Positions 1,500-32,998 of a stretch of DNA of 64,000 nt are shown piece after piece. This DNA comes from Acorus gramineus (Eukaryota; Streptophyta; Magnoliopsida; Acorales; Acoraceae), in the NCBI GenBank assembly GCA_030737835.1, contig CM060847.1:10678704-10742703 (forward strand). The letters are read 5' to 3'. Both the position numbers and the translations under genes were made by a program. The notes beneath the pieces were generated by a model that saw only the letters and a list, made by a program, of their open reading frames with translations, was not told the origin of the DNA and searched no databases. Every line of letters starts with the position of its first letter. Positions within the stretch are counted from its first letter, which is position 1.

Positions 1500-1650
1500 T
1501 ATTATTTAAGGGAGCCTTTTTTAAATCCTTGACCGCGGCTGAAACAATACTAAAAAAATCATTTATTTATTTCCTTTATTAAACTTAGTCGTTTATTCAT
1601 TTTAACAATAAAGTCGGACGACTTTTTTTTCCTGAATTACGACGGTCCAT
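1500..1650 (-). pseudogene. Remnant F of the acidic coiled-coil family (exon 1 fragment)
   Basis: Reading the minus strand from 1650, an ATG follows a TAG splice acceptor, as in the intact copies, and starts MDRRNSGKK. A run of A then shifts the frame; in the next frame the sequence continues SSDFIVKMNKRL, matching the MLLDFIMEMNVRL region of copy D. The coiled-coil and acidic parts are lost further on. The upstream side (1650-1800) resembles the region upstream of copy C exon 1. This is a truncated, frameshifted family member. Confidence 0.7.
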
Positions 1651-2950
1651 CTACACATCATAAAATAAATAAATTAAATTAAAAGAAGTCTTGGAAACCA
1701 TTACATAAATTCTAGATATATTTATACTGATTAGTTTGGATGATTTGTTATTTGTTTGTTAAAAACTAGATGTATTTGTTAATTAAAGATAGAGATAATT
1801 TTGTTTTGTTCGGTTTATTTATTTTTTATTAGTTAATTAATTCTATGTTTTTTTTGTCCAATTTGAACTTGTACATTATTAACTCTGATAAATTATCTTT
1901 TTATGAATTCAAAATCATATAAAAAATTAACTTTAATTTTGCATGAAAAGAATTATGTATACACAGAAAGATTGCTATATCACGTAATCTCTTCATAAAA
2001 AAAAATCAGAATTTATAATATATTAATATTCAATATAAGAAAACAAATTTAAGAGATTCATATAAATAATAATATTAATTTATGTTTCACACATAAAAAT
2101 CATTAAAATTTGAAATCTAAAACAATTATCATTTAATTAGTTATGTTGTACCTCTTTAAATAAAAATTATTCATTTTCTTGATTCATGCGATTTCCTCCG
2201 ATGTCTTATTCATAAGAATAATTAATAAAAACATATGAAACAATTTCAACTGAAAAAAAAAATCAAATAAACCACTTTTTATATAACCATATCATAACTG
2301 TAAATGCCAATAGTATGATTTAACTGTAAATGCCAATAGTATGATTTCAACGTGAAACACATTTTTAACTGTCACGCACAATCAATGAATGGATGCACGC
2401 TCAATTCATCAAAATAATTCAGTACTTGATATTAAAAATAAGAACAAATTAAATACCAAAAATAACTATTTACTTAGTTATATTCTCTTCAATGCACGCT
2501 CTCTCAGATTCTCGGATCCAGTCAGAATATGCTTCGGTATTGAACTGCATATCCTAGTAATCGAACAACACAACCTATTAATCAAACTGCATAACCAATT
2601 GTAGGGTGTATGTTCACTCTCCTATTTTATACTGATGAAACTTAAGAATCTATGTTTTATCAAATAGCTGATTGAATCTAATAAGAAAGCGGAACATGTA
2701 TGCATCAAAAATTGATTGTGCAGCTCAATTCATAGACTGTGTAGTTCGATGTGCAATTCAATACTAACAAGATTGATCGAAACAAGTCATGATTGGATCC
2801 AGACTCCGCTTTCTTAAAAGTGAAAATTTTTTCTATACACAAATCAATTCTCTTGTGAATAATAATAAATAAAGAAGTCAAATATTAAATACTTTTTTGA
2901 TTTGGTGTAGCAAATATTAAATACATTAGTTATCTCTCTAAAATATCACT
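1651..2950 (-). other. Leader/promoter-side remnant of a family unit, duplicated at 7.84-8.77 kb
   Basis: The block from about 2030 to 2940 is clearly the same sequence as about 7850-8760; for example both contain a stretch like GATTGTGCAGCTC near 2716 and 8528. Weak plus-strand open frames in the two blocks look alike only because the DNA is duplicated. I treat the block as noncoding leader and upstream sequence of family units. A 23-bp tandem duplication (GTAAATGCCAATAGTATGAT) lies at about 2300-2346. Confidence 0.6.
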
Positions 2951-3582
2951 TGATTATTCATATTAATGTTAATATTTAAACATGTCAGTCATCCCAAAAA
3001 ATATTCGTATTTTATCTGTAACTGAAGGAATCTGAATATGAAAATTAATATCTAAATCCGAATTCAAAAATTAGGATATAGATATTAACGTATCTGATCC
3101 GTATATGCCCGATTGAAAGATTTACTAGTAGTCCTTAAATTTTCTTTAGATTTGAAAACCTGAATGAAAAAAAATAAAAAATAAAAAAATCATTCCGACA
3201 ACCCTTTTTTTTCAGTGTCAAAATCTTCTCTTCTGACTACGGATTAATCGGCGTATACGGACTAATCAATCACTTCTAAAATGATAATACATATAGATAT
3301 ATTGTATATATAGTTATACCAAGTATACAAATTTATATAATAGTCAAGTATTAGACAATAAAATATAACAAAGTAACATCAGAATAAAATTGAGAACATT
3401 AGCATAACATAGATAACATGAAAAAATTAATTGATAGGCATATTATATAAGTAAGACAGTTTAATAGATTAGTATTCAATTTAATGAACAAAAATTAATT
3501 AACAGACAATATATATAAGTACAATAGTTTAATAACTTATTAATTAATTAAATGCATGGGTATGAAAGCTACAACAAATTAA
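2951..3582. other. AT-rich spacer, nothing recognised
   Basis: AT-rich sequence with no sustained open frame and no recognised repeat boundary. Confidence 0.5.
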
Positions 3583-3812
3583 TGCCCCGTTTGGATTTAC
3601 GTTTAGATAGATTTTGCATTTCAAAAACTAAAATTTTTTCTAACATGGATCTAAACTCATTTTTAATGTTTAGCTTTCCAAATTATTATCTTATTTTTTT
3701 AAGCTAAAAACCTAACGATTAAAAATATCATAAAATAATGTTTTTCATAACCTTAGTTTAAAATTTAGGATTTTAAGAATCTTAACTTTCAATCTCACGT
3801 CCAAACACTTTC
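3583..3812. mobile_element. Tourist/PIF-Harbinger-like MITE, copy 1
   Basis: A 230-bp element is bounded by TAA (3580-3582 and 3813-3815). It starts TGCCCCGTTTGGAT and ends with its near inverse around CACGTCCAAACACT. The interior resembles the elements at 18346 and 18678, including paired internal AAGCTAAA/TTTAGCTT-like tracts. A 3-bp TAA/TTA duplication and the GTTTGGAT terminus are typical of the PIF/Harbinger group. No transposase is present. Confidence 0.65.
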
Positions 3813-4085
3813 TAAGACAATTAAAAACCAAGAAAACCAACCATAATAATACACAATTATTGATAGAAAAAAAATCTTATGACTCGAATACCTACACCCT
3901 AGGAAGGGGGACCAGGATAAGAGTTCCGGGTTGAACTCACATTTTTTTTTCACATTTTAACATAACATCACATGCAATCAAAGAAACCTGAAAAAGTACA
4001 TAATAATTTTCTTTTTTAAATGATATTAAGATAGGGAATGTTAAAAACAGAGAAAAATAAAGAAGCAAGCCAATAAAATCATGAT

Positions 4086-4418
4086 CTACTCAAAAACATT
4101 TTTTTTTTTTTGAAAAAAGGTAGATATTTGCTATCTGATTTTATTTCTGATATCGAATTACAAACTCCGAAATGAGGGTGATTAGAAAGCATAAAGAAAA
4201 CATCTAATAAAATACAATAAAACCTCCTCACTCTCCGAGGTTAGAAGAGACATCTAACCCGACAGAAGGGGTGAGAAGGCTCACTCCATGGCTACCTTGT
4301 GACACATATCCTCCCGCCTCTGAATGCCACCTCCTCCGCCTTCGCAATGAACCATCCCCAATCCCTGATGCACCCTCAAAACATATCCCCAGTCCCTGAT
4401 GCACCTACTCAAAAACAT
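4086..4418 (-). mobile_element. 5'-truncated LINE-like insertion with 14-bp target-site duplication
   Basis: Direct repeats CTACTCAAAAACAT at 4086-4099 and 4405-4418 match at all 14 positions and flank 305 bp. The insert ends in a T run on the plus strand, so it is a poly-A-tailed retroposon on the minus strand. Its 5' end carries a partial tandem duplication of a GATGCACC-containing segment. Copy B has the empty site: near 9355-9370 the same CTACTCAAAAAC is uninterrupted. LINE is the best guess from the tail and long TSD; a processed pseudogene is possible. Confidence 0.75.
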
Positions 4419-4770
4419 ACGTAGAGAAAAACTAGAAAGAAAAAAAAAGTTATTAATAGTTAATACAAGATAAAAAAATGTGCACTAATATCCATGTACA
4501 ATTACATATAGCTAGAAAAAAAAGTGAGGATGTCTTCAAATTCATCAACAACTAACCAATATTCATCCCCTTTAGTCTCAACAAATCCCTCTCCATCATA
4601 TTTTCCTCGAACCGTCATTTTTTGAGTCTGACATCGTCGTTGTTTTCGTTATCGTCCTCTGACTCATGAGTCTTCACCCTTCCGGTTGTCCTCCCATCAT
4701 TCCTCTTCAGAGTGGTAGGAGGACTCTTCAACTCTTCGGAGTTTTAACAGCCGATGCCATCTTTATACTC

Positions 4771-4931
4771 GTGCGTTTGGGTGCACGATTTCAAAACTGA
4801 TTCTACAGGAATCTACGATTGTAAAATTGATTCTGTAAAAAACTGTTACAATAAAATTGTTTGGTTGCACGATTGTAAATGCAGCTTCCTGTAATCGAAA
4901 TCCCAGCGCAATCGCGCAACTAAACGCACCC
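4771..4931. mobile_element. MITE inserted in exon 2 of copy A
   Basis: The element has imperfect terminal inverted repeats of about 20 bp: GTGCGTTTGGGTGCACGATT at the left, and at the right the inverse of GTGCGTTTAGTTGCGCGATT. It interrupts the acidic exon between stretches that are joined in copy B. A clear target duplication could not be read, so hAT versus Harbinger origin is undecided. Confidence 0.7.
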
Positions 4932-4962
4932 TAAGTAATCTTGTAATTCCCGGTCAACCTAT

Positions 4963-4968
<6 letters not shown>

Positions 4969-5002
<34 letters not shown>
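4969..5002. repeat. (AT)n microsatellite
   Basis: Uninterrupted AT dinucleotides of about 34 bp in the intron between the two coding exons of copy A. Confidence 0.9.
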
Positions 5003-5006
<4 letters not shown>

Positions 5007-5892
5007 TATCATTAAACAAATAATGTTGGGAACAAAAAGACATTTGGCATATGTTTTAATTTTTTAAAAATAGTAAATAATGTTTAATGAGGTATATATT
5101 TCTATGAAAACATAAAAAAAATTATGGAAGTGCATATCTCGATAGCCCTCTTGATGAATGGACATCAAGTTATATGGAGTGTATGTGGGACTGACCTTAT
5201 TACAGGCTACAAGTAACATTACTCATTATTTCAAATATATATATAAAAAAGTTATACCTAGTTCTTTAATTTATATTCTTAAATGCAGTCAATCTATATT
5301 TTCATTTTTTTTAAAATTATATACATCATCCAATGAAATTTATAATTTTTTTTTTAAATGAAATCATTCATAAAAAATGTAAAAAAAAATTTCAGAGTAA
5401 AAGAAATTAAAAAGATACATGAGACTAGATTTAGGATACTAAAACTATATATATAAAAAAATCAATATAACTAATGCAAATTCACTTGGAATTCATTTGC
5501 GGCTATCTTTGATTCACGATCAACAATCTCACTATTTGAGTAGTCAAACCCTATGAATATCTGTTTTAGATCCCCCAGCTGTGACCCGAGGTGTCTAGTG
5601 AAGTTTTCTAATCCAGAGTTCTTCACTTTGAGCACCTCCAGTCGCATGTCCATCTTCAACACGGCTTTTTCAATTCTATCGAGTCGTTTTTTCGTTTCAG
5701 CGATGAAGGCTGAAATTGTAGAATTACAACGGTCCATCTATGCAATACAAAAAAAATAAAAATAAAAAAATAATAAATAGAAGAAGTCTTGGAAACAATT
5801 ACATAAATTCTAAATAGCAGATATGGATGGTGTGTTATTTATTTGTTGTATTTGTTAATTAAATATAGAAATAAGTTTGCTTTGTTTAGTTT

Positions 5893-6072
5893 TGTTAAAT
5901 GTGTTAGACTATATATCAGTTTGTTATGATATTAGTTTGTTATTATATTAGTTTGTTAGTGTGTTATACGTGTAACACTATCTTGTACTATTATATTAAG
6001 GGCTTTAGTCCCTCTCTAATAGAACAAGAGTTCTAGAGTTTTATTATTATTTTCTCTCTCTTATTTCTAACA
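5893..6072. mobile_element. Solo LTR of about 180 bp, 5-bp target-site duplication
   Basis: The segment starts TGTTA and ends TAACA, the usual 5'-TG...CA-3' LTR termini, and is flanked by AGTTT at 5888-5892 and 6073-6077. Copy B has the empty site at about 10655-10665, where GTTTAGTTTATTTACTT is continuous. The short length and TATA-like and CT-rich interior fit a small Copia or TRIM-type solo LTR. No internal coding region is present. Confidence 0.8.
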
Positions 6073-6375
6073 AGTTTATTTACTTAGATATATTTAAAAA
6101 AATTGAGGATAAAAATAGACCTCTTACAAAGTATCTTATAAAATATTTTATATTATGAAAAGAACTAATATGGTGCAAGATTGCTATATCACCGAGAACT
6201 AATCATGTCTCATGAGATGCCAAATAGAGTAATCCGGAAAGTAAAAAAATTAGAATATCTTTTAAATTATTATAAGATATTAATATGTAATTACATTATA
6301 TAAGTTATCAATTTTTTCTTATGAGAAATCTATTAATATAATAAATATAAGATAAGTATTCTCTGAGTTCTATTT

Positions 6376-6613
6376 GGGTAATGACATAATCTATTTTGGA
6401 ATAGATAACTAATTCTACTATAGACGAAGAATAAATCATTTTTTATTTAATTATATTTTATTTATTTTCATTGCGAAGCGCTATAATGATTTTTTTTATC
6501 ATTTATTTAATTACATATAAAATGTGAATAAGATATGAATAATGAAATTATTCACATCTTGTTTACCAATATTCTATCTTATTTCCTGTCTATTTCGCTA
6601 CTCAAACATAGGC
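6376..6613. mobile_element. Possible old MITE shared by copies A and B
   Basis: The segment starts near CTATTTGGGTAATGACATAA and ends near a rough inverse (CTATTTCGCTACTCAAACAT). The same sequence is in copy B at about 11023-11275, and its left half recurs in the last 170 bases of the window, outside the array. It was therefore inserted before A and B split and belongs to a dispersed family. Boundaries are uncertain. Confidence 0.4.
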
Positions 6614-7080
6614 TAAGAAAATAGGACTTTGAGGTTTCATGGCCAAATAAAATAATATCAAAATCAATTGTTACATGATCATCACAATATAATATTGGTT
6701 TATGAAAATATAAAATTATAATGTATATATATATATATATATTCATGATACTAAGGACCCTACAGCCCCACACTCATAACCATAATAACAATTATGTGTT
6801 TTTCATGATTTTGCATGAAACCTAAAAAAATTTAACAAAAACAATACAAACCATTAAATTTCTGTGTTTTTGATGTTTTGGATGAAACAGGTTTTAATAA
6901 TTTTATTTTTATATATTTTCTACCAGTATACATTAATAAAAATACCGGAAAATCAAACATTATTTTACAATGTCTACCCTAAATTAAAAAGAACTGTGTG
7001 TGATTACACAACTCCATTGATTCAAATAATCAAAATCATAAATAAAAATAAGAACAAAAAAAGAAAAAGGACTTAATTAC

Positions 7081-7149
7081 TCTAGCTGTTATTTTCTTCA
7101 ATGTAATCTCTTGGAATTGTAAAACTCCTCAATGCACCAATCAATTCTT
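7081..7149 (-). other. Noncoding leader exon 2 of copy A
   Basis: Bounded by a TTACAG acceptor at 7150 and a GTAATT donor at 7080 on the minus strand. The sequence GAATTGATTGGTGCATTGAG has close equivalents in copies B (11794-11726), C (near 17120) and D (near 21488). No ATG is present, which fits a 5' UTR exon. Confidence 0.6.
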
Positions 7150-7451
7150 CTGTAATTAAAAAAAAAATAAAGGTAGTCAAATATTAAAATCCTAAGTCTA
7201 AACTTTAAAAAATATTTTAAAATATTAAAAACAAAACATATAGAAAAAAATAAACCAATCAATTCACCTTAGACAATAAAATCCAATACCACAGAGGATG
7301 AAAACTTTTTATTAAAATCATGCAAAAAAAATAAAAAATATTTATTGAAAAACATAAAAAACCAAAAAGCAAAACATAAGGTTCCTCGTCTTCCCCTTTT
7401 TGCCTTCTCTTCTTTGTATGGAATTTTTTTCCCCTCTTGTGAGGTGAGACG

Positions 7452-7468
7452 TATATAATTATATATAA
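7452..7468 (-). promoter_or_regulatory. TATA region of copy A
   Basis: Minus-strand TATATATAATTATATA lies just upstream of the conserved CTCACCTCACAAGAG and ATACAAAGAAGAGAAG leader. It occupies the same place as the TATA elements of copies B, C and D. Confidence 0.6.
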
Positions 7469-7702
7469 GTTTAAATTGGGTTACGCAACAAATTTAAATT
7501 ATGTCATAACTATATTTAATGATCCAAACAGTATATAATATCTAACCAAAGTAGTTACAATTATGAGTTGTGTGTCACACCATGATTTTATTCTGTTACA
7601 TTTTATTTTTATCTTAAAATTAGTAATTAATAAAAGTAAAAGATTAGCCCAAAACGAGCTAAAAAAGGAAGATCTGATTTCAAGAAACAATTGGAGTTTT
7701 AA

Positions 7703-8770
7703 TGTCACCTCTTAATCATCATCTTTATAGTCATTCATTGATTGTTGTTGTTCTCTAACTCATGGTCTTCCGAGTGACCACCCTTCCAATTGTCCCCCCA
7801 TTATTCCTCTTCAGAGTGGTAAGGAAACTGTTAAGATATTAACATAAACAACAATAATAATTTATATATATTTCACATATATATAAAAATCATTAAAATT
7901 TGAAATCTAAAACAATTATCATTTAGTTATGTTATACCTCTTTAAATAAAAATTATTCATTTTCTTGATTCATATTCATGCGATTTCCTCCGATATCTTA
8001 TAAGAATAATGAATAAAAACATGTGAAAAGATTTCAATTGAAAAGAAAAATCAAAATAAACCACTATTTATATAACCAGATGATAACTGTAAATGCCAAT
8101 AGTATGATTTCAATGTGAAACTCATTTTTAATTGTCACGCACAACCAATGAATGGGTGCTCTCAAAGGGAAATCCCCAATTGGACGGCCAGGATTTTTCA
8201 ATCGGGTCCGTCAGTTCATAAAAACTCAGTACTACATGTTAAAAATAAGAACAAAATATCAAAAAGTAACTATTTACTAAGTTATATTCTCTTTGATGCA
8301 CACTCTTTGAGTCCGGATCCAGTCAAGGCATGTTTCGATCAATTCTGTTAGTATCGAACTGTATGGCTAATTAATCGAACAACACAACCTAGGAACCAAA
8401 CTGCACAACCAATTGTTGGGTGCATGTTCACTTTCCTATTTTATATTAGTGATACTTAGGAATCTATGTTTTATCAAACAGCTGATTGAACTTAATAAGA
8501 GGGCAGAACATGCATGTATCAAACATTGATTGTGCAGCTCGATTCATAGACTGTGTAGTTTGATTAATGAGTTGTGCAATTCGATACTCACATGACTGAT
8601 CGAAGTCAGTTCTGATCGGATCTCGACTCCGCTTTAAAAAACTTTTCTATACACTAATCAATTTTCTTGTGATTAAAAAAAAATAACAAGTCAAATATGA
8701 AATACTTTTTTTATTTGGTGTAACAAATATTAAATACATTAGTTTAAAAATATTTTAAAATATTAAAAAC
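7703..8770 (-). pseudogene. Remnant G: acidic-exon fragment fused to F-type upstream sequence
   Basis: At 7703-7836 the minus strand carries a fragment like the acidic exon (compare CCAATTGTCCCCCCATTATT here with the same stretch in copy B near 9650). It then runs straight into about 900 bp matching the leader-side block at 2030-2940. Coding exon 1 is missing, so this is a deletion or recombination product between units. Confidence 0.55.
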
Positions 8771-9440
8771 AAAACAGAAGGATAAATATCAACCGGGGAT
8801 CGGGCCAGGTTAGGTCTAGTGGGCATTGGACATATCATTTATATATTTGTATAAAATGTGAAGTATATAATCTAATAAATTGAATGATATTTTAGGCGGC
8901 TCGGGTCCACCGACGATGGCGACCCGTATGGGCTGAAGATTTTGTCGGTGGTGAATTTTTAAGAGGAGTTTGAAGAGGGAAAATCGCAGAGATGCTGGAG
9001 GAGGGATGTGGAAAGAGGTGAATTTTTGTATTATGCATAGAGGGGTAAAAGTATCATATAGAGGGGGGTGTTTGAATTATTCTTTAATTGTAGGGGGTTA
9101 TTAGCACAATGTGTTTACATTTAAGAGTTAAAATAATAGAATATTCCAAGAATATTCTATTTGGATATACATATGGGTTTGTAGGGGGGTTATATAAATT
9201 TAAAAAAAAATCAGGGAGTTATATGGTTATTAAACAATTTGTAGGAGGTTATATACATTTTTTTTTAAATTATAGGCATTTGAACTTAATTAATATTAAG
9301 AAAGAGGATGTTTAAATTGCAGAAATACAAAGAAACAAACTAATAAAATCATAGCCTACTCAAAAACCCATGGAGAGAAAAATTAGAAAAAAAAAAAAAA
9401 GCTCTTAATAGTTAATACAAAGAGAGAAAAAAATGTACTA
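8771..9440. other. Spacer with transposon-like, G-rich plus-strand texture
   Basis: No gene is supported. Phrases such as GGGGGGTTATATAAATT and GGAGGTTATATACATT recur here and near 34250-34440, suggesting a shared decayed repeat. Confidence 0.4.
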
Positions 9441-9464
9441 ATATCCATGCACAAGCACATATAC

Positions 9465-10537
9465 CTATAAAAACAGAGATATGTCTCCAAATTCGTCAAC
9501 AACTAACCAATATGCATCCCCTTTTGTCTCAACAAATCCCTCTCCATCATATTTTCCACCAACATCTGAATCTTCAGCTTCTGAAGAGCAGTTCTCATTG
9601 TCATCCTCCAAATCGTTATCTTTAGAGTAGTCCTCCGAGTTGACAACCTTCCAATTGTCCCCCCATGATTCCTCTTCAAAATGATTGGAGGGTTCTTCAG
9701 AGTTGTAGTCATCGTTGCCGTATTCAGACTCGTTTAAGTCATCATGTGATTCTTGGTCAACCTATAAAAAAAAAATTAGTAAATACGAGATACCATTAAA
9801 TAAATAATGTTAGGAACAATAAAAACATTTTGCATGTGTTTTTATTTTTTAAAATATTAAGTTATGTTTAATAAAGTATATATTTTTATAACATAAAAAA
9901 AAAATTGTTATCGAAGGGAATACTTCGTTAGCCCGCTTGATAAATAGATATCAAGGTATAACGTGGGATTGTCCTTATTATAGGCTATGAGTAACATCAC
10001 TCATTATTTCAAATAATATAAAAAAAATTATACTCAATTTTTTTTTACATTTTGAGATGCAGTCAATCCGTATTTTCATTTTTAAAAAAATTATATACAT
10101 CATCCAAAGACATTTATAATTTTTAAAAAAATTGAAGTAATAATCCAATGAATTGATTAATATCATTTATAAAAAATGTGAAAAAAATTTCAGAGTAAAA
10201 GAGGTTAAAAAGATACATGGGACTATATTTTAAACTTTCTAAAACTATAAAAAACAAAAATTCAATATAACTAATGCAAATTCACCTCGAATTCATCTGC
10301 GGCTATCTTCGATTCACGATCAACAATCTCACTATTTGAGTACTCAAACTCTATGAATATCTGTTTTAGATCCTCCACTTGTGACCCGAGTTGTCTAGTG
10401 AAGTTCTCCAATCCAGAGTTCTTCACTTCCAGCACCTCCAATCGCATGTCGATCTTCAACACGGCATTTTCAATTCTATCGAGTCGTTTTTTCGTTTCAG
10501 CGATGAAGGCTGAAATTGTAGAATTACAACTGTCCAT
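9465..10537 (-). CDS. Copy B: intact acidic coiled-coil protein of unknown function
   Basis: Two coding exons, 10537-10286 and 9761-9465, joined in phase 0 (donor GAG|GTGAAT, acceptor TTATAG|GTT), give 182 aa with no internal stop. The ATG sits directly after a TAG splice acceptor. Residues 1-84 hold a predicted coiled coil (LDRIENAVLKIDMRLEVLEV) and the family core LENFTRQLGSQVEDL. Residues 85-182 are very acidic and end with GDAYWLVVDEFGD. No signal peptide or membrane segment is visible. Noncoding leader exon 2 is 11794-11726; the promoter lies near 12091. I do not recognise the family. The coiled coil suggests self-association and the acidic tail a chaperone-like or chromatin/ribosome-binding role, but that is only inference. 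Confidence 0.65.
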
Positions 10538-11725
10538 CTACACAATACAAAAAATATAAAAATAAATAAATAATAAATAGAAGAAGTCTTGGAAACCATT
10601 ATATAAATTTATTTGTTGTATTTGTTAATTAAATATAGAAATAAGTTTGCTTTGTTTAGTTTATTTACTTAGATATATTTCAAAAAAATTGAGGATAAAA
10701 ATAGACCTCTTACAAAGTAGTTACAATTAAACTTTATTAACTCTTATAAAACCTTATATATTAGGGATTCAAAACTATATTAAAATTAACTTTATCTCAC
10801 ATGAAAAGAACTAATATATGGTGCAAGATTGCTATATATATCACCGAGAACTAATCCGTCTCATGAGATGCCAAATAGAGTAATCTGGAAAGTAAAAAAA
10901 TTAGAACATCTTTTAAACTATTATAAGATATTAATATGTAATTATATTATATAAGTTATCAATTTTTTTTATGAAAATCTAAAATCAATATAATAAATAT
11001 AAGATAATTATTCTCGGAGTTCGATTTGGGTAGTGACATAATCTATTTTAGGATAGATAACTATTCTATTATAGATGAAGAATAAATTTTTTTTTTTAAT
11101 TGTATTTTATTTATTCTCATTGCGAAGCGCTATAATGAACTTTTTATTTTTTAGTTAATTATAAATAAGTTGTATATAAAATGTGAATAAGATATAGATA
11201 ATAAAATTATTTACATCTTGTTTACCCATATTCCACCTTATTTCCCACCTATTTTGCTAATCAAACAGGGGCTAAAAACAGAGGACTTTGAGATTTCACA
11301 GCCAAATAAAAATACTATCAAAATCAATTGTTACATGATCATCACAATATAATATTGATTTATGAAAATATAAATTTATTATGTAAATATAATACCAAGG
11401 ACCCCTACAGCCCCACACGCATAACTATAATAACAATTATATGTTTTTCATTTTGGCTGAAACCTAAAAAAAATTTAACAGAAAAAATACAAACCATTAA
11501 ATTTCTGTGTTTTTTATGTTTTAATTGAAACAAGTTTTAAAAATTTTATTTTTATATATTTTCTACCAGTATACATTAATAAAAAAAATACTGGAAAATA
11601 AAACATTATTCTACAATGTCTACCCTAAATTAAAAAGAACTGTGTGTGATTACTCAACTCCATTGATTCAACTAATCAAAACATTAATAAAAATAAGAAC
11701 AAAAAAAGAAAAAAAAAGGACTTAC

Positions 11726-11794
11726 TTTAGCTGTTATTTTCTTCAATGTAATCTTTTGGAAGTGTAAAACTCCTCAATGCGCCAATCAATTCTT
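11726..11794 (-). other. Noncoding leader exon 2 of copy B
   Basis: Acceptor TTGCAG and donor GTAAGT are both good consensus sites on the minus strand. The exon matches the copy A leader exon closely and contains no ATG. Confidence 0.6.
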
Positions 11795-12090
11795 CTGCAA
11801 TTAAAAAAAATAAAGGGAGTCAATTATTAAAATATTTAAGTCTAATTAAAAAAATATTTTAAAATATTAAAAACAAAACATATAGAAAAAATAAAACCAA
11901 TCAATTCACCTTAGACAATAAAATCTAATGACAGAGAGGATGAATTTTTTTTAAATCATGCAAGAAAATAAAAAAAAATGATTGAAAAACATTAAAAACC
12001 AAAAACTAAAACAAAAGGTTCTTCTTCTTCCCCCTTTTTTTACCTTCTCTTCTTTGTATGCAATATTTTCCCCTCTTGTGAGGTGAGATG

Positions 12091-12106
12091 TATATAATTA
12101 TATATT
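12091..12106 (-). promoter_or_regulatory. TATA region of copy B
   Basis: Minus-strand ATATATAATTATATA precedes the same CACCTCACAAGAG and GCATACAAAGAAGAGAAG leader seen in copies A, C and D. The first leader exon ends AGAGAAG|GTAAAA near 12048. Confidence 0.6.
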
Positions 12107-12146
12107 GGTTGTATTTGAAGTTTAGGTTGGTTACACAACAAATTTA

Positions 12147-13041
12147 AAGCTTATTTGGATACTGTGCAAATGGGGGTGGGTTTTCATTTGCACTGGGTCA
12201 AACACAATACCTTGTTTGGTTATGATAATTAATTGTAACAAATAAAATCCCAGGGTTCTCATTTGCCACATTAAATGGGGCAATCAAAATCCCAACCAAC
12301 CCCATGTGTTATTTGTAACAACTCTCAAGTGTATTTAACGTAATTTTACATTTTTGCCCTTTAAAAGTCCATGTTATCCAAAATAAATGTTTCTTCTCGT
12401 AATTTTATTTTAAGATTTAAAATAAATAATTACATTTTATAAATTTATATAACTTAGAATAATATAATTATGTAGATTATAAATAATAATGTGGCATAAA
12501 ATATTATAAATGTTATTATATTAAAATATACCAAAAAATCTTAACTAACTATCGTAGATATTATCCAACAAAATTGTTATTTATAAAATATAAAAAAACC
12601 TTGTGGGATTAATTGTTAATTGAAATTAGATTTTTTTTGTTTATATTCTATTATATTAGAACCATTTTTTTTACCAAATTGACTTATATATAGATTAAAA
12701 AAACTAATATATGCAATATTAAATTTTTATTTTTTATATATAATATATTGTTCATATATTTTATCGGTTTTAAGAAAATAAAATATTTGATAATCATTTG
12801 AAAAAAAATATTTTGTCTATTTATAATATTATTATCTTTTAACATAATAAATTAACACATATACAAACAATTTCACATATGTAAAACAAACAACTACTAA
12901 CAAGAACATGTGTATAAATGATAGCACAACATGAAAATAGAAAAACATGTGCAAACAATGTACAAAGTTTCTCTGCACGTGCAATGTAAAATTTGCATGT
13001 GCAAAAAAATACGTACAAATAATCACTGCATCCAAACACCC
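12147..13041. mobile_element. Nonautonomous PIF/Harbinger-like element, about 0.9 kb
   Basis: The left end is AAGCTTATTTGGATACTGTG; the right end, inverted, is AAGGGTGTTTGGATGCAGTG. TTA flanks both ends (12144-12146 and 13042-13044). Copy A supplies the empty site at 7490-7505, where CAACAAATTTAAATTATG is continuous. No transposase frame is seen; small minus-strand frames inside are low-complexity. It lies upstream of the copy B promoter and may have altered its regulation. Confidence 0.75.
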
Positions 13042-13773
13042 TTAAATTATACTATAACTATATTTAATGATCCAAACAATATATAATATCTAACCAAAGT
13101 AGTTACAATTATGAGTTGTGTGTTGATTTTATCCTGTTAAGTTTTATTTTTATCTTAAAAATTAGTAATTAAATAAATAAAAGATTAGCTCAAAACGAGT
13201 TACAAAAAGGAAGATCTAATTTTAAGAAACAATTGGAGTTATAATGTAAACATAATGCTTTTTTAATTATTTTAATAATATGATTATATCAACTCCATCA
13301 ACGCCAAAATTATGTAACTAACAAAACATATTTCGAATCTTCATAATATATGCAATTATATATATGGTTGGATTTAAGTAAAATCTATTACATTAAAATC
13401 AACTCTTCATATCAATATATTTCACAAGCAAAATTTTATGTTTTTCATTTAACGAAGAAGCTTAGAATGAAAAGTCAAAAACATATATAAAATATATAAT
13501 TTTTTATTTTGTGAGTTTTACCACTATGTTTATCTGAATACACATACCTGTAAATCAGCTATTGAATGAAAGGGAAACTAAGGGAAACTAAAGGCAGTAA
13601 AAAAACTACAATAATCAAAGTGTATAAACAATATCTTTAACAAATAAGATTGTGGCAAAGTAATTATATTTAGAGCTTCAATTAGCAGTAGATATAACGA
13701 TCGAGAATCCCTAACTGAACGGTCACGATTTTTTCAATCGCATCCTTCAAATCATCAAAATAATTTATTAGTT

Positions 13774-13990
13774 TTTTTTTTTTTTTTGATATATAAGCCC
13801 AAACAAGACAACAGTTTTGCTTACGAACAAGATAGACCTGAACTAACCAGGGTTCATATAAGAGACAGTGGGTCTAATCCACAGACAACCAGCCAACAAG
13901 GCTGTTTTTCTTGTTTTACCTTCCTCCTGCCTCTGCAGGGAATCAAACTCACGACCCTTGACAAAAGGGGTGTCCCTGCACCACTATGAC
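13774..13990 (-). mobile_element. tRNA-derived SINE with 16-bp target-site duplication
   Basis: Direct repeats AAATAATTTATTAGTT (13758-13773) and AAATAATTCATTAGTT (13991-14006) differ at one base. On the minus strand the element starts with an A-box-like AGTGGTGCAGGG and has a B-box-like GAGTTTGATTCC about 30 bases later. It ends in a poly-A tail (the T run at 13774-13787). This is the plan of a plant Pol III SINE. Confidence 0.8.
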
Positions 13991-14567
13991 AAATAATTCA
14001 TTAGTTATGGGAAGAAAGGTACAGGTATAGGTGAATAAGTCCGTCGCTGTAGAGTTTCCATGAAGACCTCTATTTTCAAGAGATGCTCGATAAGGGAATT
14101 AGACCCCGGGAAGCTATTGGAATTTGAATTGAAGCAGGTGCTTCTTGATCAGGGGATGAATGATTTGGTTCTTGAGTTGGCCTGGTCTGAAGCTTGATAG
14201 ATTGAGGAATTTAAACACAGTTGGTGTTGACTGGTTCTTGTTAGTGCTGATTGTCATTAATTTATACAAATTAATGTTGTTTTGATCTTGATGATCATTT
14301 TTATTTTTATTGAAGTAAACTTCATAGTTCATATGCCCATCTTTTGTTGTTACCATCCATTTGAGTTGGATAGTATTTGAATTTGTTGTTAAATCATTAG
14401 AAAAAAAAAGTTATGCTTGAATAAAACAAGATTTTAGATACACATGTTCTAGTTAGAGTCGAGACATTATTGGATGGAAAATGTTAAATTAATAAATAAA
14501 TGACATGTGAGTCATCGTCGTTGCTGTCATTGTCCTCCGAATCAACATCTTCGGAGTTCTCCTCCTC

Positions 14568-16344
14568 CTACTCTTCATCGTTGTCGCCTTCGCCATCATC
14601 AGAGTGGTCCTCTGAGTCGCCTCCTTCCCAATTCTCCTCTTCATCGTCGTCGTCATCATCAGAATGGTCTTCGGAGTCGCCGCCCTCCCAATTCTCCTCC
14701 TCGTCGTCGTCCTCATCATCAGAATGGTCTTCAGAGTCACCGCCCTCCCAATTCTCCTCCTCGTCGTCGTCCTCATCATCAGAATGGTCTTCCGAGTCGC
14801 CGCCCTCCCAATTTTTCTCCTCCTCGTCGTCGTCGTCATCATCATCGGAGTAGTCATCTGAGTCACCGCCCTCCCATGCCTCTTTAGAGTTGTAGTACTC
14901 GACATCACTATTGTTGTTGTCATTGTTGCTCCATATCGGTCTGGGACACACAATCTCCTGTAACCTCGACCACAACTCCTCGAACCTGAAACCTTCCATG
15001 GTTAAATTGGGAACAACATATTTTCGGTCGACCTATAAAAGAAAAAGAATGTATAGTTAGATGAGATATTATTAAACAAATAATGTTAATAACGAGCGAT
15101 TTATATTGATTTTGATTTTCAAAAAATAACAAGCGATCTATATTTAAGCGTGTGTGTGTGTGCCTCTCTCTCTCTCTGTATATAAAATATGAAAATGATA
15201 ATATGTAGTTCGTGTCATGTATATACATCTCTTATCAAGTATATGTGTCAATAAGGAATGCACATTGTCAATAAAAATTGCTAAGGAAGTACATATATCT
15301 CGTCTAAGAGGTTTTTACCTTGATGGTCCTTGATAATGAATATCGAGGTATTTATTTATATACTAATCCAAAAGGGTTTTGAGATGTATGTAACATCATT
15401 TTATATTTTGACTTTAATAAATTTATTAAAATCAATTATTTAAATATATTTAAATGATAATATTATATCCCTATCCACTCAGTCTCATGAAATGCTTTTC
15501 AATAAAGCTTTTTTTTCATATATGCCCCCAAACAATCACATTTGTCAGAATATTCCTAAATTTTGTTATTTTCAGTAATACCCCTCAAACACATTTAAAT
15601 TATGCATAAATATTATTTTGTAACCCATTTGTGGGGGTATTGATAGTTTTAGAGTTCGAAATAATTTTTTTTTTTGACAATATAAGCTTGATATAGGTAT
15701 ATATATACAAAAAAAAAAAACCTTTTTTTTAGTTGTACATAACATATTTCTTTCATTTATAATTCATAACAAATTTTGGAAATAACTGATTTAATAATAT
15801 TAAGATTTCATTATATTATTTGCATATATATATAAATGGGTTGAAAAATCATGAGAGTGCTAGTTTAGAGAAACTGTTTTAAAACTTTTTTTTATTTATA
15901 CGCACATTGTACGTAGATGAATACAAATTTTTCCATGGGACTATCCACATGGGCCACACGTAACAAAGATGATCATCATCAAATAGTAAAAGAATTGTTA
16001 CACTCATTTTATTTTACAGAAATAAACGCAGTTCGTTCATTTTTTTTTTTTAATCATACACATTATTTAGTGAAGCATATGTTTTTTTGAAAGGTGAAGT
16101 AGTATTCTAACTAATTGAATGATACCAGTGAAAATCTTTCTAAATTTTTTTTTCTTCTAAAACTAGAAAAAAAAATCAAATTCACCTTGTAATCAGAGTT
16201 GGTCTCGGAGTCCACGAGTCTCTCTTTGAGCTCCTCCACTTGTTCCCCAAGCTCTCTCGTGAAGTTCTCTAGATTAATCAATCGCTTATTCATGTCCACA
16301 ATATTAATATCCGACGACATTTCTTTTGAATTACGATGGGCCAT
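14568..16344 (-). CDS. Copy C: acidic family member with a 20-residue minisatellite
   Basis: Exon 1 is 16344-16186 (53 codons; MAHRNSKEMSSD, core LENFTRELGEQVEELKERL) with donor AAG|GTGAAT. Exon 2 is 15032-14568 (acceptor TTATAG|GTC), giving 207 aa. The N-terminal part is shorter than in A and B and lacks their first coiled-coil turns. Exon 2 holds a stretch found in no other copy (MEGFRFEELWSRLQ), then about five tandem units of NWEGGDSEDHSDDEDDDEEE. The TAG at 14570-14568 falls inside the acidic region: reading through would continue acidic for about 20 more residues to TAA. Copy C may therefore be a shortened but expressed protein. Function unknown. Confidence 0.55.
14585..14875. repeat. 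60-bp coding minisatellite in copy C
   Basis: Four to five head-to-tail units of 60 bp (last unit toward the protein N-terminus slightly longer). Each encodes NWEGGDSEDHSDD plus a D/E run. Units are nearly identical, which implies recent expansion or homogenisation. Confidence 0.85.
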
Positions 16345-17442
16345 CTACACAACACAAAATAAATAAAATAAATCAAAAGGAGTTTTGGAAAACATTACAT
16401 AAATTCTAGGTATATTTATACTGGTCAGTTATGGATGATTTGTTATTTGTTTGTTAAGAGTTAGATGTATTTGTTAAGATATGTATTTGTTAATTAAAGA
16501 TTTGGTTTGTTCATTTTATTTATTTTTTAGATTTTTTTTTTCAACTTTAGGGATTCAGAATATATATAAACAATTAACTTTAATTATCTATGAAAAGAAC
16601 TCGATATATTGATTATGTAAATTAGATATACATGGTAATCAAAATATATATTGATTTTTAAAACATAAATTTTATTATTTATTATGTAAATATAAATTCA
16701 TATCACCGAGGACCCCACAGCCCAACATGCTTAACCATAATAACGATTATATGTTTTTCATTTTGGCTGAAACCTAGAGAATGATCTGACTGGAAAAAGT
16801 ACAAACCATTGAATTTCTGTGTTTTTTATGTTTTGGATGAAACGGAGTTTAAAAATATTTATTTATTTTTAAATTTTGGCCTATCTGCAGGCCAGTATTA
16901 ATAAAAATATCTGAAAATCAAATATTATTCTACAATGTCTACCCTAATTAATTAAAAAGAACTATGTGTGATTACTCAATTCTCTATTGATTCAACTGAC
17001 CAAAATCATTAATAAGAATAACAACAGAAAAGAAAAAAGAATTACTTACTTAACTATTCTCTTCAATGTACGATCTAGCTCTTCAAAGTGTGTAATTCCT
17101 TAATGCATTAATCAATTCTTCAGTGATAAAAAATGTAAAGAGTCAAATATTAAAATCTAAGATAAAAAAATTTAAAATATTAAAAACAAATCTTAAAGGA
17201 AAAATAAACCAATCAATTCATCTTTGATCGACCAAAAAAAAAAATCCAATAAACAAAGGATGAAAACTTTTTTTTTTAACTCATGCAAGCTAAACAATAA
17301 ATATTTATTGAAAAACATTAAAAGCCAAAAAACAAAAAATTAAACATGGTTCTTCGTTTCCCCCCCTTCTTTTTTTTACCTGCTCTTCTTTGTATGCGAG
17401 AGGATTGAATTACTTTTTTTTTTGTCTTGTGAAGTCAGACAC

Positions 17443-17456
17443 CTATATTTATATAG
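17443..17456 (-). promoter_or_regulatory. TATA box of copy C
   Basis: Minus-strand CTATATAAATATAG, a textbook TATA box. The leader GCATACAAAGAAGAGCAG with a GTAAAA donor follows about 60 bases downstream. Confidence 0.65.
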
Positions 17457-18345
17457 GTGGCATGTTATAAGTTTTAGGTCAGATACATAACAAATTTCAA
17501 TTATATCATAATTATATTTTATAATCCAAACAGTATATAACTAGCCTTCTCCAACACGTCAAAATAAAAATAATATTAATAAAACATAAATATGTTATAC
17601 ATATTTAGAAAAAACATTAAATTATATGAAATAATATTAATGAAACTAGTTTAACACAATCTAAAAGACATGTTATTTCCAATACGTGAATAGAAAGTCA
17701 CATAACATATTCACAATAACAAAGATATTAATGATCATATATATATATATATTAATATATATATGGACCTTGTTATTCATGGGCATATATATATGATTTT
17801 AATCATCTGTATATTCATGTGCATATATGCATATATTATTATTATTATTATTATTAAAAAAATCATATAATATACAAATGATAAGGTTTATGAATGGATA
17901 AGAATTTGTTAAGCTAGAATTTGCTGGGTTGAGTCAATCTTATATGTTAAAAAAATCCACCTAGATCTGAATATATCCCCATCTCTCATAAAATTTATCA
18001 TATAAAATCACACATCTTCGTCCCTGCAATTAGTTTACTCCCAGAATCTCATTTCATGAATTACAAATAGCTATAAATACTTATTTGTTAAAAAAAAATT
18101 TAAAATCAATCTAATCCGTATATAAAAAAAAATATTACTATTAATGTAACAAAGGAACAAATTATTATAAATAAACAATAAATAATATAATATAAGTATT
18201 AATAATTATTAAATCATTTGTAAAATTTGACGTGGAAGTCATACATGAAAATAACCATATTTTTTAATTAATTTATTAGAGAATTCGGTTATATATAAAC
18301 TTTATGAAATCTAATTATTTATTTAAAATCTAAAAATAAGATTAA

Positions 18346-18576
18346 GGGACCGTTTGGATATGAGTTTAGGTAGATTCTGTGTTTGAAAAGCTAAAAATTT
18401 TAAAACTCAGATCCAAACACATTTTAAGCGTTTAGCTTTTCAAACCACAATATTCATTTTTAGGCCAAAAAAATCTTGCGGTTGAAAATCTAATAAAACA
18501 TAACTTTTCAAAAGCTGAGTTTGAAACATAAGATTTTAAAAATTTCATAGTTTCAACCTCACATCCAAACGCACCC
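18346..18576. mobile_element. Tourist/PIF-Harbinger-like MITE, copy 2
   Basis: A 231-bp element flanked by TAA (18343-18345 and 18577-18579), with ends GGGACCGTTTGGAT and ATCCAAACGCACCC. Its interior is related to the elements at 3583 and 18678. Confidence 0.75.
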
Positions 18577-18677
18577 TAAGAAAAGAAATATTGGATTTGT
18601 ATAATAATGAACATTGTTAAAGGGTAAACATGCAAAATTGTATTTAGGTACATAAAATAAAAAACGCTTTCACTCAG

Positions 18678-18874
18678 GCCTCGTTGGCATATGAGTTTAG
18701 GTAAAAATTCTCCACTCATATCGAAACACATTTTCTGCTTTTAGCTATTGAATCTTTCCTTTTTAAGCTAAATCTTGAAGTTGAAAATTTAATAAAACAT
18801 AAATTAAAGCTGATTTTAAAACACAAGATTTCAAAAATCTTAGTGTTTGAACCTCACATCCAAATGTGATTAGA
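18678..18874. mobile_element. MITE, copy 3, diverged
   Basis: Starts CCTCGTTGGCATATGAGTTT and ends near CTCACATCCAAATGTG. The interior clearly resembles the element 100 bp to the left. The ends are eroded, so target duplication is not readable. Confidence 0.55.
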
Positions 18875-19224
18875 TAGATAAAGAGAGATATCTAATTGAA
18901 GTAGTTAATTATGTGTCACACCATTAATTTATCTAGTTCAGTTTTATTTTTATCCAATATACAAAGATAAACTAAAAATTAAAATTAATCATTAAATTAT
19001 ATAAAACATATCAAAAAGATTCCCTCATTAATAGTTACAAAAAGGAAGATCTAATCTAATTCTGCCATGAAAATGATGATTTTTAAGTTGTTTTATAGTA
19101 ATATATATATTAAAATTCAACCATCAACGCCAAAATCGGTTATTTACTAATCTCCTTTACTAATCTAATACAAATGAAAAAAACTTCATATAATATATAA
19201 TAATCCTTTACTAATCTCCCAAAC

Positions 19225-20525
19225 TTACATACATAAGAACAAATCATCATTGCTTAAGCAGCTAGAAAAATTAGTTTGTTTTAATTCCAAATTCATCCAC
19301 CAACAACCAATCATCCCCATTTCCCTCTCCCTCGTTGTACTCCTCTTCAATAAGTTGTTTTTCTCTTCACAGTTGTTTTCCTCTTCAAAGTCGTCCACAT
19401 TTGAGTCTGCATCCAATGAGTCCTCCTCATCTTTGTTCTCTTCAGAGTGGTAAGAGGCCTCTTCAGAGTTGTTGTCCTCTTCAAAGTCCTCCTCCACATC
19501 TGACTCTGCATATTCCGAGTCCACATACTCCGAGTCGTCGTCGTCGTCAGAGTCGTTGAAATCTGAGTGATAATCTGAATCCCCCGAGTCGTCTTCAATG
19601 TTGTTGATGTCGCTCGACATCAAATTAGAACCTTTGGAACTCAAACCAGTATATGACTCGTCTTCTGATTCATCTTCAGATTCTTCTTCAACCTATAAAA
19701 GAAAAAACCAGAATATATATATACATATATACACAGTTAGATAAGATATTATTAAAGAATAATGTTAGAGACAAATCAGCGAGGTAGTTATGCATATGAT
19801 TTGGATTGTTTTAAAAATAATAATAATAAATGACCTCTACTGAGATATATCTTTTTGTGGGCAAATGTATATATTTACATATAATGAATACATAGAAAAT
19901 TACTAATGAGATACACACCTCCATAACCATCTATCTATACCTCTATAAACCATGATAGATGGCCACGTATAATAACAATGCTCATTATTAAATATAAAAA
20001 ATGTTACAGTCAATACTTTTTACCGTTCTAAATGCAGTTCGTCCATGCTTTCATTTTATAAATATCATACATATCAATCAACAAATGAAAATGTGAAAAA
20101 AATTTAACGAAACGTATAACTCATTACATTGAGTAGAAGGAGTTAAAGAAATGTATAAGACAACATTTTAATAATAGTATTCTAAATATATAATAAAAAA
20201 AAAACTATAAAATTGATCCATATAACAATTCCAAATTCACCTGCAATTCCTCTACATCATCAGTCATGCTCTTCGTGGACTCCCATGTATCTGAATCAGT
20301 ATAATGAGAAGTATAATAAGAGGTAATGTCCATCACCGGATCCATCAATAGCTCCTCCACTTGTGAGCCTATCTGTCTAGTGAAATTCTCCAGACCAGAA
20401 TTCTTTACTTCGAGCACCTCCAGTCGCGTGTCGATCTCCGAGACGACTTTCTCTATTCGAATCAGTCGTACATTCATCTCCATAATAAAGTCCAGCAACA
20501 TCTTCCCGCAGTTACAGTGGTCCAT
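19225..20525 (-). CDS. Copy D: acidic family member with a probable late frameshift
   Basis: Exon 1 is 20525-20241 (95 codons; MDHCNCGKMLLDFIMEMNVR, coiled coil RLIRIEKVVSEIDTRLEVLE, core ENFTRQIGSQVEEL) with donor CAG|GTGAAT. Exon 2 is 19692-19225 (acceptor TTATAG|GTT), giving 250 aa as read. Exon 2 is dominated by D, E and S with irregular SEYxxSEY-like units. The last 40 or so residues as read are basic and Cys/Trp-rich, unlike the family. In another frame the same bases encode DDWLLVDEFG and end at a TAA, matching the copy B end motif. The frame break lies near an A run around 19358. The gene may be newly broken, or this assembly may carry an indel. Confidence 0.55.
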
Positions 20526-21710
20526 TATCTACACAGTGTAAAATAAATAAAATAAGGAAAATGAAGGGGAGAATAGAAGAGAATGGGGGAATATGTTTAA
20601 AAAATAAAAATGTTTTTTTTTTCTATTTAAAAGGAATAGATGTAAATAACTATGTTATAATATGTGAGAAAAAAATGGTATTTGTATTTTATGTCCCCTA
20701 TGAAATTGTGTTATTTTATCTAATCTATCTCACTGATATAAAGAAATTCATATGTCAAATCAATTGTTATCACATCTTATAAATAATAAAGTCACAAGTC
20801 AAAATTATTTTTTCTTCGTTTATAAATTTTTATTAACAACTTATTCATATTTTATTAACAACTTACCAAACAACAATTTTTTTTTTTGTAACAAACGGGT
20901 TTACAAGTTTATTCGGTTATATTCCATCATATTCACTGCCTATTCCACTACGCCAATGGGGGCCAAGAAAACTGGAGTACTTTGAGATTTTGCTTATCAC
21001 AATCGATTACATTATAATCACAATTGATTTTTTATAATATAAATTTTATTATGTATATATAAATTCATATCTCCAAGGACCCCCCACACATAACCATAAA
21101 TCCATAATAACAATTATACATATGTTTTTCATTTTGGCTGAAACCTACAAAAAGATCTAAAAGAAAATTACAAACCATTGAATTTCTACGCTATTTATGT
21201 TTTGGATGAAATAGGGTTCAAAATATTTGTTATTTTATTTTTTTCCTACTACTATATTTATAAAAAAACCTGAAAATCAAATATTATTCTACAATGTCTA
21301 CCCTAAATTAAAAATAACTACGTGTGATTACTCAACTCCACTGATTCAACTAATCAAAATCATTCACAAGAGGATAAAAATAAGAACAAAAAATAAAAAA
21401 GAAACTACTTACTTTTTTTTTTCTCTAGTATACGTTTTATTGAAAGTGAAAAACTCCTCTATGTACTAATCAATTCTCCTGTGAATAAAAAATATAACGA
21501 GTTAAGTATTAAAAACTTAAGTCTAAACAAATATTAAAAACAATACATATAGGAAAAATAAACCAATCAATTCACCTTTGAAAAAATCCAATAAAACAAA
21601 GGATGAAATTTTTTTTAACACATGCAAGCTAAACAAAATCTTTGTTGAAAAATATTTATTGAAAAACATTAAAAACAAAAAAAAAAGGTTCTTCGTTTTC
21701 CCTTATTTAC

Positions 21711-21782
21711 CTTCTCTTCTTTGTATGCGAGAGATTTGATTTTTTTTTCTTCCTCTTGTGAGGGGAGATGTCTATATTTATA
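21711..21782 (-). promoter_or_regulatory. Promoter and first leader exon of copy D
   Basis: Minus-strand TATAAATATAG at 21782-21772 is the TATA box. About 25 bases on is the conserved CCCTCACAAGAG, then CGCATACAAAGAAGAGAAG ending at a GTAAAT donor after 21711. The same order is kept in copies A-C. Confidence 0.65.
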
Positions 21783-22449
21783 CAGATGGTATGTGAAGTT
21801 TTATGTAGCTTATATAACAAATTTCAATTATATCATAAATATATTTAATAATCCCAACAGTATATAATATTTAATATCTAATTGAAGTAGTTACATTTGT
21901 AAGTTGTATGTCACGCCATGATTATATTCGGTTCAGTTTTATTTTTATCCAATATGCAAAAGGTAAATTATAAATTAAAATTAATCATTAGATTAAATAA
22001 ACAAAATATATTAAAAGATTTGCTCATTATGAGCTACAATCAGGAAGATCTCAATCCAAGAATAAAGTGGAGGTTACCCAAAATTATTGGATTTATATAA
22101 TGTAATTGATGTAAATATGATAAATTTTTAATTTATTTATAATATATTATATTAAAATTCAACCATCAACGCCAAAATTCTATATGTAGGAGGAAATCTA
22201 TTTCGATTCTTCACAAAAAATGCAATCAAATAAGATTGGATTTTAGTAAATCTATTATATTGAAATCAACTCTTCATAAATATATAATATTCTTACTTTT
22301 CGTATAATTATAAAATCAAATGAAGAAAGGTTCTACAAACAAAATTGTGTTTTTCATTTAAGGAAGCCTAGAATAAAAGGTCAGAAATAGAAAAACACTT
22401 TTTTTTTCCAGTTCTACCACTATGTTCATAAATCCCTGATTCCCTTCCA

Positions 22450-23136
22450 TTATCAAATTTTCAATTTTATGATATTGCTTACATTGCACATTAAAATATA
22501 ATTACGAAAATTATATTCATGACGTGTGTGTGTGTGTATGTGTTTTATTGATTAATTTTTGAAAAAGATTATCATAGTTTATAAAATTTAAATCATATAC
22601 AGATGATGACGATTTGAATTGTGAAAAATAAAAAATGTAAACATTCATTATCTTCCTTTATCTATTATTATGCAAAACATAATAAACTTTGAAGGATAAT
22701 ACGTCAATTAATAAAACCTAATAAATATATCATTATTTATATTGTGAGACATTGCACACCTTTTAATTATTTTGGGGGGAAATTAATTAGGTTTCATAGT
22801 CACCCGTGAATTATTTTTAAACCCTTGAAAATTTTAAATTTTTTTCACTCTCTAAAACGGTGAAAATTATCTTTAGACCTGTCAAACACTTGCTCACACA
22901 TTGCTAACTTTCACAAAATATTAAAAGATGCATTTACATCTGTTTATAGAGATCTAAAGAAAACTTGAAAACTTTCAAAAGCTTGAAAATAATTCATGGA
23001 TAATCACAGAGATCCTTAATTAATTTTTTCTTTTTTAAAATGATATATATTATCCAATGAAGACCACAAAATACTTACATGTTTTTATCAGAAAATGAAG
23101 AATATACTTCAATGCTATATGCATTTATAAAAAATG

Positions 23137-32941: not shown

Positions 32942-32998
32942 AATTTCGTGTTGAAGAAGAATTCTCTCTCTCCCTCAAATTGTACCAACCACTTCACC
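32942..32998 (-). other. Noncoding leader exon 2 of copy E
   Basis: Acceptor AATCTCAG and donor GAG|GTAAGA bound GTGAAGTGGTTGGTACAATT and a GAGAGA tract on the minus strand. It stands where the other copies have their second leader exon. Confidence 0.5.

Follow-up and report, generated by a model that had tools for sequence, protein, structure and literature searches.

A tandem array of related gene units lies within a 64,000-base stretch of the Acorus gramineus genome (contig 1, 10678704-10742703), referred to here as the window. Four units are found on the minus strand, A (about 7.6-4.5 kb), B (13.2-9.46 kb), C (17.5-14.5 kb) and D (21.95-19.2 kb), together with two remnants, all between 1.5 and 22 kb. 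Compared pairwise by blastn, units A-D form long collinear blocks of more than 700 positions at 73-83% identity, with E down to 0; A and B, for example, are 83% identical over 1529 positions, C and D 76% over 914, and A and D 73% over 1109. The two remnants have a 214-base stretch in common (2537-2750 and 8351-8564, 86%). A-D have the promoter and leader exon 1 in common, and they also share the leader exon 2 region with the remnants, where it lies at 2.4-2.9 kb and 8.2-8.7 kb. Units A-D are built alike, with a TATA box, leader exon 1 and the leader exon 2 region, then a long leader intron and two coding exons. Leader exon 1 ends in ACAAAGAAGAG(A/C)AG, with G(T/C) following across the junction. 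The ATG of coding exon 1 comes directly after the acceptor or, in D, three bases after it. The coding intron is in phase 0 in all five two-exon units (A-D and unit G, described below), the donor reading xxG/A before the junction and GTGAATTTG after it, and the acceptor ATAG before and GT(T/C)GA after. Because the units are collinear, follow a common gene plan with the same phase-0 junction, and have remnants with a common stretch, the tandem array is real and far beyond chance. A first-pass annotation of this DNA had proposed at least four one-strand units with remnants, and a common promoter, two leader exons and a two-exon coding plan, and both proposals are borne out.

Within the window, unit B alone is whole in every element checked. 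Its leader exons are at 12044..12100 and 11726..11794, its first coding exon at 10286..10537 (84 codons, helical as predicted by AlphaFold2, AF2), and its second, acidic and intact, at 9465..9761, ending in WLVVDEFGDISLFL. These features, and those that follow in the window, are on the minus strand, and the leader exon 1 starts of all units are estimates from the position of the TATA box. In unit A, coding exon 1 (5486..5737; 84 codons, ENFTRHLGSQLGDL) has 87% protein identity to that of B. The leader exons are at 7404..7457, with a GC donor, and at 7081..7149. Exon 2 (4502..4958) is broken: it carries an insertion of about 160 bp and its frames are split, with the end W-L-V-V-D-E-F-E still readable. 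The insertion (about 4930-4771) has inverted-repeat-like ends (GGTGCGTTTAGTTG and CACCCAAACGCAC) and is partly repeated on contig 5 (L035 320-396, 78%). Unit C has leader exons at 17380..17440 and 17050..17120, the latter having lost its acceptor AG (CACTG, not CACAG), and a first coding exon of 53 codons (16186..16344, ENFTRELGEQVEEL). Its exon 2 (14568..15032) begins with FEELWSRLQEIVCPRP, continues as 20-residue acidic repeats (NWEGGDSEDHSDD and so on), and meets a TAG ahead of a tail like that of unit G. In unit D, the leader exons are at 21711..21775 and 21413..21478, coding exon 1 is at 20241..20525 (95 codons), and the acidic exon 2 is at 19225..19692, where a late frame shift leaves the terminal WLLVDEFGIKTN in another frame. 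The conserved part of leader intron 2 of D spans 21101..21411, and similar stretches occur in Helitron-like elements elsewhere. Judged by eye, this intron also contains sequence similar to a pol III A box (GGCGTAGTGGAATAGGCAG), at window 20935-20975, perhaps a fragment of a short interspersed nuclear element. One remnant, called E (1400..2950), contains a leader exon 2 region, the common 214-base stretch and a decayed exon 1, and the second (7740..8810) contains a piece of an acidic exon and a leader exon 2 region resembling that of E. Stages from whole gene to remnant are present within about 40 kb. The birth, death and repeat expansion suggested earlier are visible in the array.

The array had been placed as ending at 22.45 kb, but further units are found on both sides. 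Unit F, at 33.2-31.35 kb and beyond a Bystin gene, has a similar promoter, two leader exons (33105..33150 and 32939..32997), the conserved intron stretch, and a single acidic frame of 177 residues (31349..31882), which includes SETEWVMVTDD. Its first ATG opens a 26-residue frame like the start of its paralogue H, and the long frame is in another phase, so that F is shifted near its start relative to H. Unit H, on contig 10, has the same promoter and leader exons as F, a coding frame, and the common motif EWV[ML]VT; near the C-terminus it is out of frame with F, matching in two separate tblastn pieces. Homopolymer errors in the assembly may be the source of the frame shifts in D, F and H. Unit G (locus L029) was recovered by a leader search of the plant's own genome, which was searched over 398,581,865 bases (398.6 Mb) in 137 contigs; all counts of genome matches given here are lower bounds. 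The coding exons of G are 2.7-3.7 kb to the left of the window start. Exon 1 encodes 26 residues (MDKMKMDVSAFNKTPENLKNWVDQFQ), and exon 2 encodes 165 residues in an unbroken acidic frame. The sequence FEELxSxLxxIVCPRP is common to G and C, and C joins both coding types, its exon 1 being of the A/B/D kind and its exon 2 of the G kind. A stretch adjoining G (L029 3892-4282), which overlaps the end of a frame that by eye looks PPR-like, is repeated at 80% beside the 3' end of C (window 14071-14472). C therefore seems, from the sequence, to have arisen by a duplication that included G and the end of G's neighbour.

The encoded proteins are markedly acidic. B, C and D each have a predicted isoelectric point of 4.05, with 51 of 182, 85 of 207 and 75 of 250 residues acidic, respectively (D with its shifted tail). 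For exon 1 of B, AF2 predicts a single helix over residues 2-83 (mean pLDDT 91, pTM 0.49, 4 sequences). In heptad register, seven or eight of the eight a/d positions of exon 1 are hydrophobic, a score matched by 8 of 1000 shuffles for C, 37 for D, 119 for A and 134 for B. An exon 1 of this type is not universal: the 26-residue exon 1 of G has no coiled coil, and no coiled-coil-type exon 1 was found in F or H. The earlier description of a family of coiled-coil plus hyper-acidic proteins holds for the acidic coding end, which is common, but not for the coiled coil, which does not unify the members. What unites the family is the 5' module together with the acidic coding end. Similarly, the core ENFTRQxGxQVEEL is a landmark in A, B, C and D, as ENFTR..G.Q...L, but not in G, F and H, that is, in four of seven units. 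The end motif W-L-(V/L)-V-D-E-F-G, named as the other common landmark, is intact in B only; in A it reads W-L-V-V-D-E-F-E behind broken frames, in D it is out of frame, and C is without it. The pattern W-[LV]-[VLM]-V recurs in diverged members: WLVVDEFG in B, WLVVDEFE in A, WLLVDEFG (out of frame) in D, EWVMVTDD in F, and EWVLVTHD in H. The exact pattern, picked after seeing the data, arises in 12 (B exon 2), 29 (F) and 26 (H) of 5000 shuffles. The consensus of the ATG8-interacting motif (AIM) is given as W/F/Y-x-x-L/V/I, often with acidic residues close by, with a warning of false positives (PMC8666691). WLVVDEF of B, EWVMVTDD of F and EWVLVTHD of H match this consensus, in acidic surroundings.

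Calculation of dN/dS among the exon 1 copies had been proposed as a check. For B-D, over 53 alignable codons, dN is 0.25, dS 1.22 and omega 0.20 (bootstrap 0.07-0.49, with 22 of 300 replicates undefined). For A-D, omega is 0.25 (0.09-0.69, 36 of 300 undefined), and for A-B, over 84 codons, it is 0.39 (0.16-1.50), indistinguishable from neutral. Exon 1 is under purifying selection in the B-D and A-D comparisons, and function therefore persisted through much of the history of the family. The idea of a family under changing selection finds no support here: the B-D value is that of plain purifying selection, the A-B interval spans neutrality, and no in-frame pair has a point omega above 1. Between C and G, over 59 codons, dN is 0.45 and dS 1.26, without bootstrap. 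Among repeats 2-5 of C exon 2, synonymous codon differences over the first 16 codons exceed nonsynonymous ones in six of six comparisons, an excess to which gene conversion could add.

Conservation of the 5' module was measured in 100-base windows along D. The best conserved of these among A-D together is 21400-21301, in leader intron 2, where identity is 97% for A-B, 87% for A-C, 89% for A-D, 90% for B-C, 92% for B-D and 88% for C-D. Over 21400-21101, identities are 71-97% among A-D and 62-75% for F against C and D; the best D window against F is the one after 21400-21301 (75%, against 69% in 21400-21301). In the windows of exon 1, C is 31-46% identical to A, B and D, and the A-D and B-D pairs are at 51-70%. 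A gathering search of the whole window against Rfam gave no match, in the conserved leader intron or elsewhere.

The 5' region of F is repeated at one place on contig 9 and at three on contig 10. At the contig 9 copy, tblastn with seven queries found no family protein in 7 kb (no E below 0.05). Downstream on the same strand are two stop-to-stop frames of at least 40 residues with an acidic excess of at least 5, of 48 and 186 residues, the longer being antisense to another frame. H occupies one of the three contig 10 places. At the other two, an F-type promoter and leader exon 1 precede DUF7722-type sequence (L069 5133-5820, contig 10 at about 10746.7-10747.4 kb, and L060 7115-7950, contig 10 at about 10758.6-10759.4 kb), the similarity to F stopping within about 50 bases past leader exon 1. 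One of these two copies has a frame that scores DUF7722 (PF24847, E 6e-24); in the other, whose DNA is similar, the scanned frame does not. DUF7722 is also scored by a third frame close by (L069 8497-8880), where the search found no F-type promoter. The two joins are apparently chimeric genes, to judge from their sequence. Their promoter and leader exon 1 are those of F and H, whereas the coding part is unlike the acidic proteins.

Leader matches were found on contigs 2, 83 and 62 as well. A 301-base query from the contig 2 element matches itself and the leader introns of A-D, and over about 87-284 bases it also matches contigs 52, 62, 83 (two), 5 and 32. The loci concerned are eight (L031, L032, L034 and L051-L055, on contigs 2, 83, 62, 52, 5 and 32). 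When the search was relaxed, at the cost of also returning AT-rich background, similarity of about 60-71% to the leader intron stretch of several units appeared in six of the eight (L031, L032 and L051-L054), and in L031 it extended over about 530 bases. Helitrons end 3' in a GC-rich hairpin followed by CTRR, mostly CTAG, and are inserted before T (PMC6591975). Ends of this description are present in five of the eight loci, with a hairpin-like CACGTGC..GCACGTG or a variant of it followed by CTAG and T (L051, L032, L034 and L055) or by CTAA (L052); such an end was not seen in L031, L053 or L054. The leader may have been either captured or donated by Helitron-like elements. In L032, copia-type retrotransposon frames (8-2469) were seen by eye to adjoin a Helitron-like element.

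None of eight family sequences (B, C, D, F, G exon 2, H, D exon 1 and C exon 1) reached the curated cut-off in Pfam-A. A sequence search of PDB with B gave five weak matches, none convincing (the best, at E 0.095, to the small subunit of acetolactate synthase; coiled coils of the c-Jun type at E of at least 2), and one with F gave no match. As far as the Pfam and PDB searches reach, the earlier statement that the family matches no known one stands. A literature search for a comparable family or for DUF7722 returned no match, the search being thin and not implying absence from print. Within the plant's own genome, the exon 1 protein matches A-D only, besides two chance-level matches at E above 4; exon 2 of B matches A and B, exon 2 of G matches G and C, and F matches the cluster and contig 10.

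Among the neighbours of the array, four of ten frames scanned are over the Pfam cut-off. They match Bystin (27.8-28.5 kb, exon at window 27802-28548), a Clp protease (one exon, 36.6-36.9 kb), a WW domain (44 kb) and Myb repeats (51 kb). Further Bystin matches are on contigs 7 and 4. An origin by whole-genome duplication was considered and rejected: Bystin matches are on contigs 1, 7 and 4, and the relatives of the family on contigs 9 and 10, with synteny compared for Bystin alone. Since Bystin and the family relatives sit on different contigs, the array does not obviously track this neighbour.

All or part of the 5' module is found before differing coding parts in the array, in H and in the DUF7722-type copies, and leader-like stretches lie in Helitron-like elements; the module therefore appears to be kept and reused while coding parts turn over. 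The reading we favour, with confidence about evenly divided for and against, is that of a tandem family in birth-and-death turnover whose 5' module is kept and reused and whose products are acidic proteins of an adaptor type, their function being read from sequence. The module would comprise a promoter with a TATA box, one short leader exon, in most cases another leader exon, and the conserved leader intron stretch, and the coding part behind it would diverge fast or be replaced. If the units are transcribed and translated, the products would be proteins that are small, strongly acidic and probably disordered over most of their length. An exon 1 of 84-95 residues, helical as predicted for B, would stand ahead of the acidic tail in A, B and D and may form a coiled coil by pairing. 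Such proteins would most likely act as adaptors, dimerising or binding a partner through the helix and offering W-[LV]-[VLM]-V in the acidic tail to a docking surface. ATG8 is the best-matching known reader of such a motif; that it would bind here seems doubtful. Plant NBR1 and other AIM adaptors offer a parallel: the N-terminal helix of B may oligomerise, and a W-x-x-V in acidic context lies near its C-terminus. However, the motif of the present family is a putative docking site and is not kept in all units, and unlike those adaptors the family has no recognised cargo-binding domain, given that there is no Pfam match.

Tandem orphan, or taxonomically restricted, gene families of plants that evolve by birth and death are known. 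The present family resembles them in its tandem array of unequal copies, its pseudogenes, its fast coding divergence and its lack of a Pfam match. It differs in having a 5' module that is more conserved than some units' coding parts and that precedes several different coding parts.

A number of observations weigh against a family of functioning acidic adaptors. In the window, B alone is undamaged in the features checked, and F and H are each frame-shifted relative to the other. The coding frames of G are whole, but its leader exon 2 lacks its end, and the intron stretch next to it is missing. Support for a coiled coil is weak in A and B because of the number of shuffles that equal their heptad scores. 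W-[LV]-[VLM]-V is either absent from C, D and G or out of frame there, and a generic acidic W-x-x-[LIV] turns up in 899 (B exon 2), 1133 (F) and 1253 (H) of 5000 shuffles; since 18-25% of shuffles produce it, the motif type alone is weak evidence. That the acidic exon is open is no evidence by itself, because the same GA-rich repeat DNA is open in other frames too. The F-H ratio, 0.47 over 111 codons (0.27-0.91), is likewise weak evidence, because frame 1 gives a similar value (about 0.53; frame 2, about 0.99). To these is added the A-B omega.

Several of these points would fit an array that is mostly dead, in which a once functional gene for an acidic protein was multiplied in tandem and is now decaying, with one or two live copies at most and no common present function. 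This is possible, though we lean against it. It would account for the damage in A (the insertion, split frames and GC donor), C (the TAG and lost acceptor), D (the late shift) and F (the early shift), for the two bare remnants, and for an A-B omega that does not depart from neutrality. However, B is whole in what was checked, and exon 1 is under purifying selection between B and D and between A and D. The same selection on exon 1 speaks against a quite different account, in which the 5' module is itself what is selected, as a promoter and leader cassette with an intronic regulatory element that drives any coding sequence behind it, the acidic proteins being incidental. Here the high identity of C with A, B and D in 21400-21301, set against the low values of its exon 1, the promoter and leader exon 1 standing twice before DUF7722-type sequence on contig 10, the contig 9 promoter and leader copy without a recognisable coding part, and the leader-like stretches within Helitron-like elements would all be explained. 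However, the exon 1 percentages of C were read from a gapped alignment in sequence that aligns weakly, the module could be dispersed without selection on it by ordinary recombination or Helitron capture, and G does without much of the intron stretch. We regard selection on the module alone as unlikely.

About as improbable in our estimate is a related proposal, that the promoter and leader exon, together with the leader-intron stretch, make up an expression cassette that is portable and has been placed before several coding parts, spread partly by tandem duplication and possibly by Helitrons, and serving as a nursery of new genes. With a similarly low likelihood, the coding parts behind such a cassette would be the helix with acidic tail of A, B and D, the FEEL/CPRP sequence with acidic tail of G, the acidic protein of F and H, and DUF7722. 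If the units themselves were a transposable element and the frames its proteins, their repetition and the leader-like stretches in Helitron-like elements would follow; the array units stand in a row on one strand, however, no transposon domain was found in Pfam, and the exon proteins match the cluster, plus contig 10 in the case of F. The copy number of the family is low, even as a lower bound, which is not transposon-like. A match to a transposon protein, named earlier as a finding that would refute the family, was not obtained in the Pfam and PDB searches, and a transposon origin, which we consider highly improbable, was rejected as the leading explanation.

Were none of the copies expressed, the array would be an ordinary decaying tandem duplication. 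The W-[LV]-[VLM]-V of the acidic tail offers a concrete candidate peptide. If the copies are expressed, the array would be a compact natural experiment in plant gene birth, in which the control region has stayed fairly constant while the protein behind it has been lengthened, shortened, swapped or lost.

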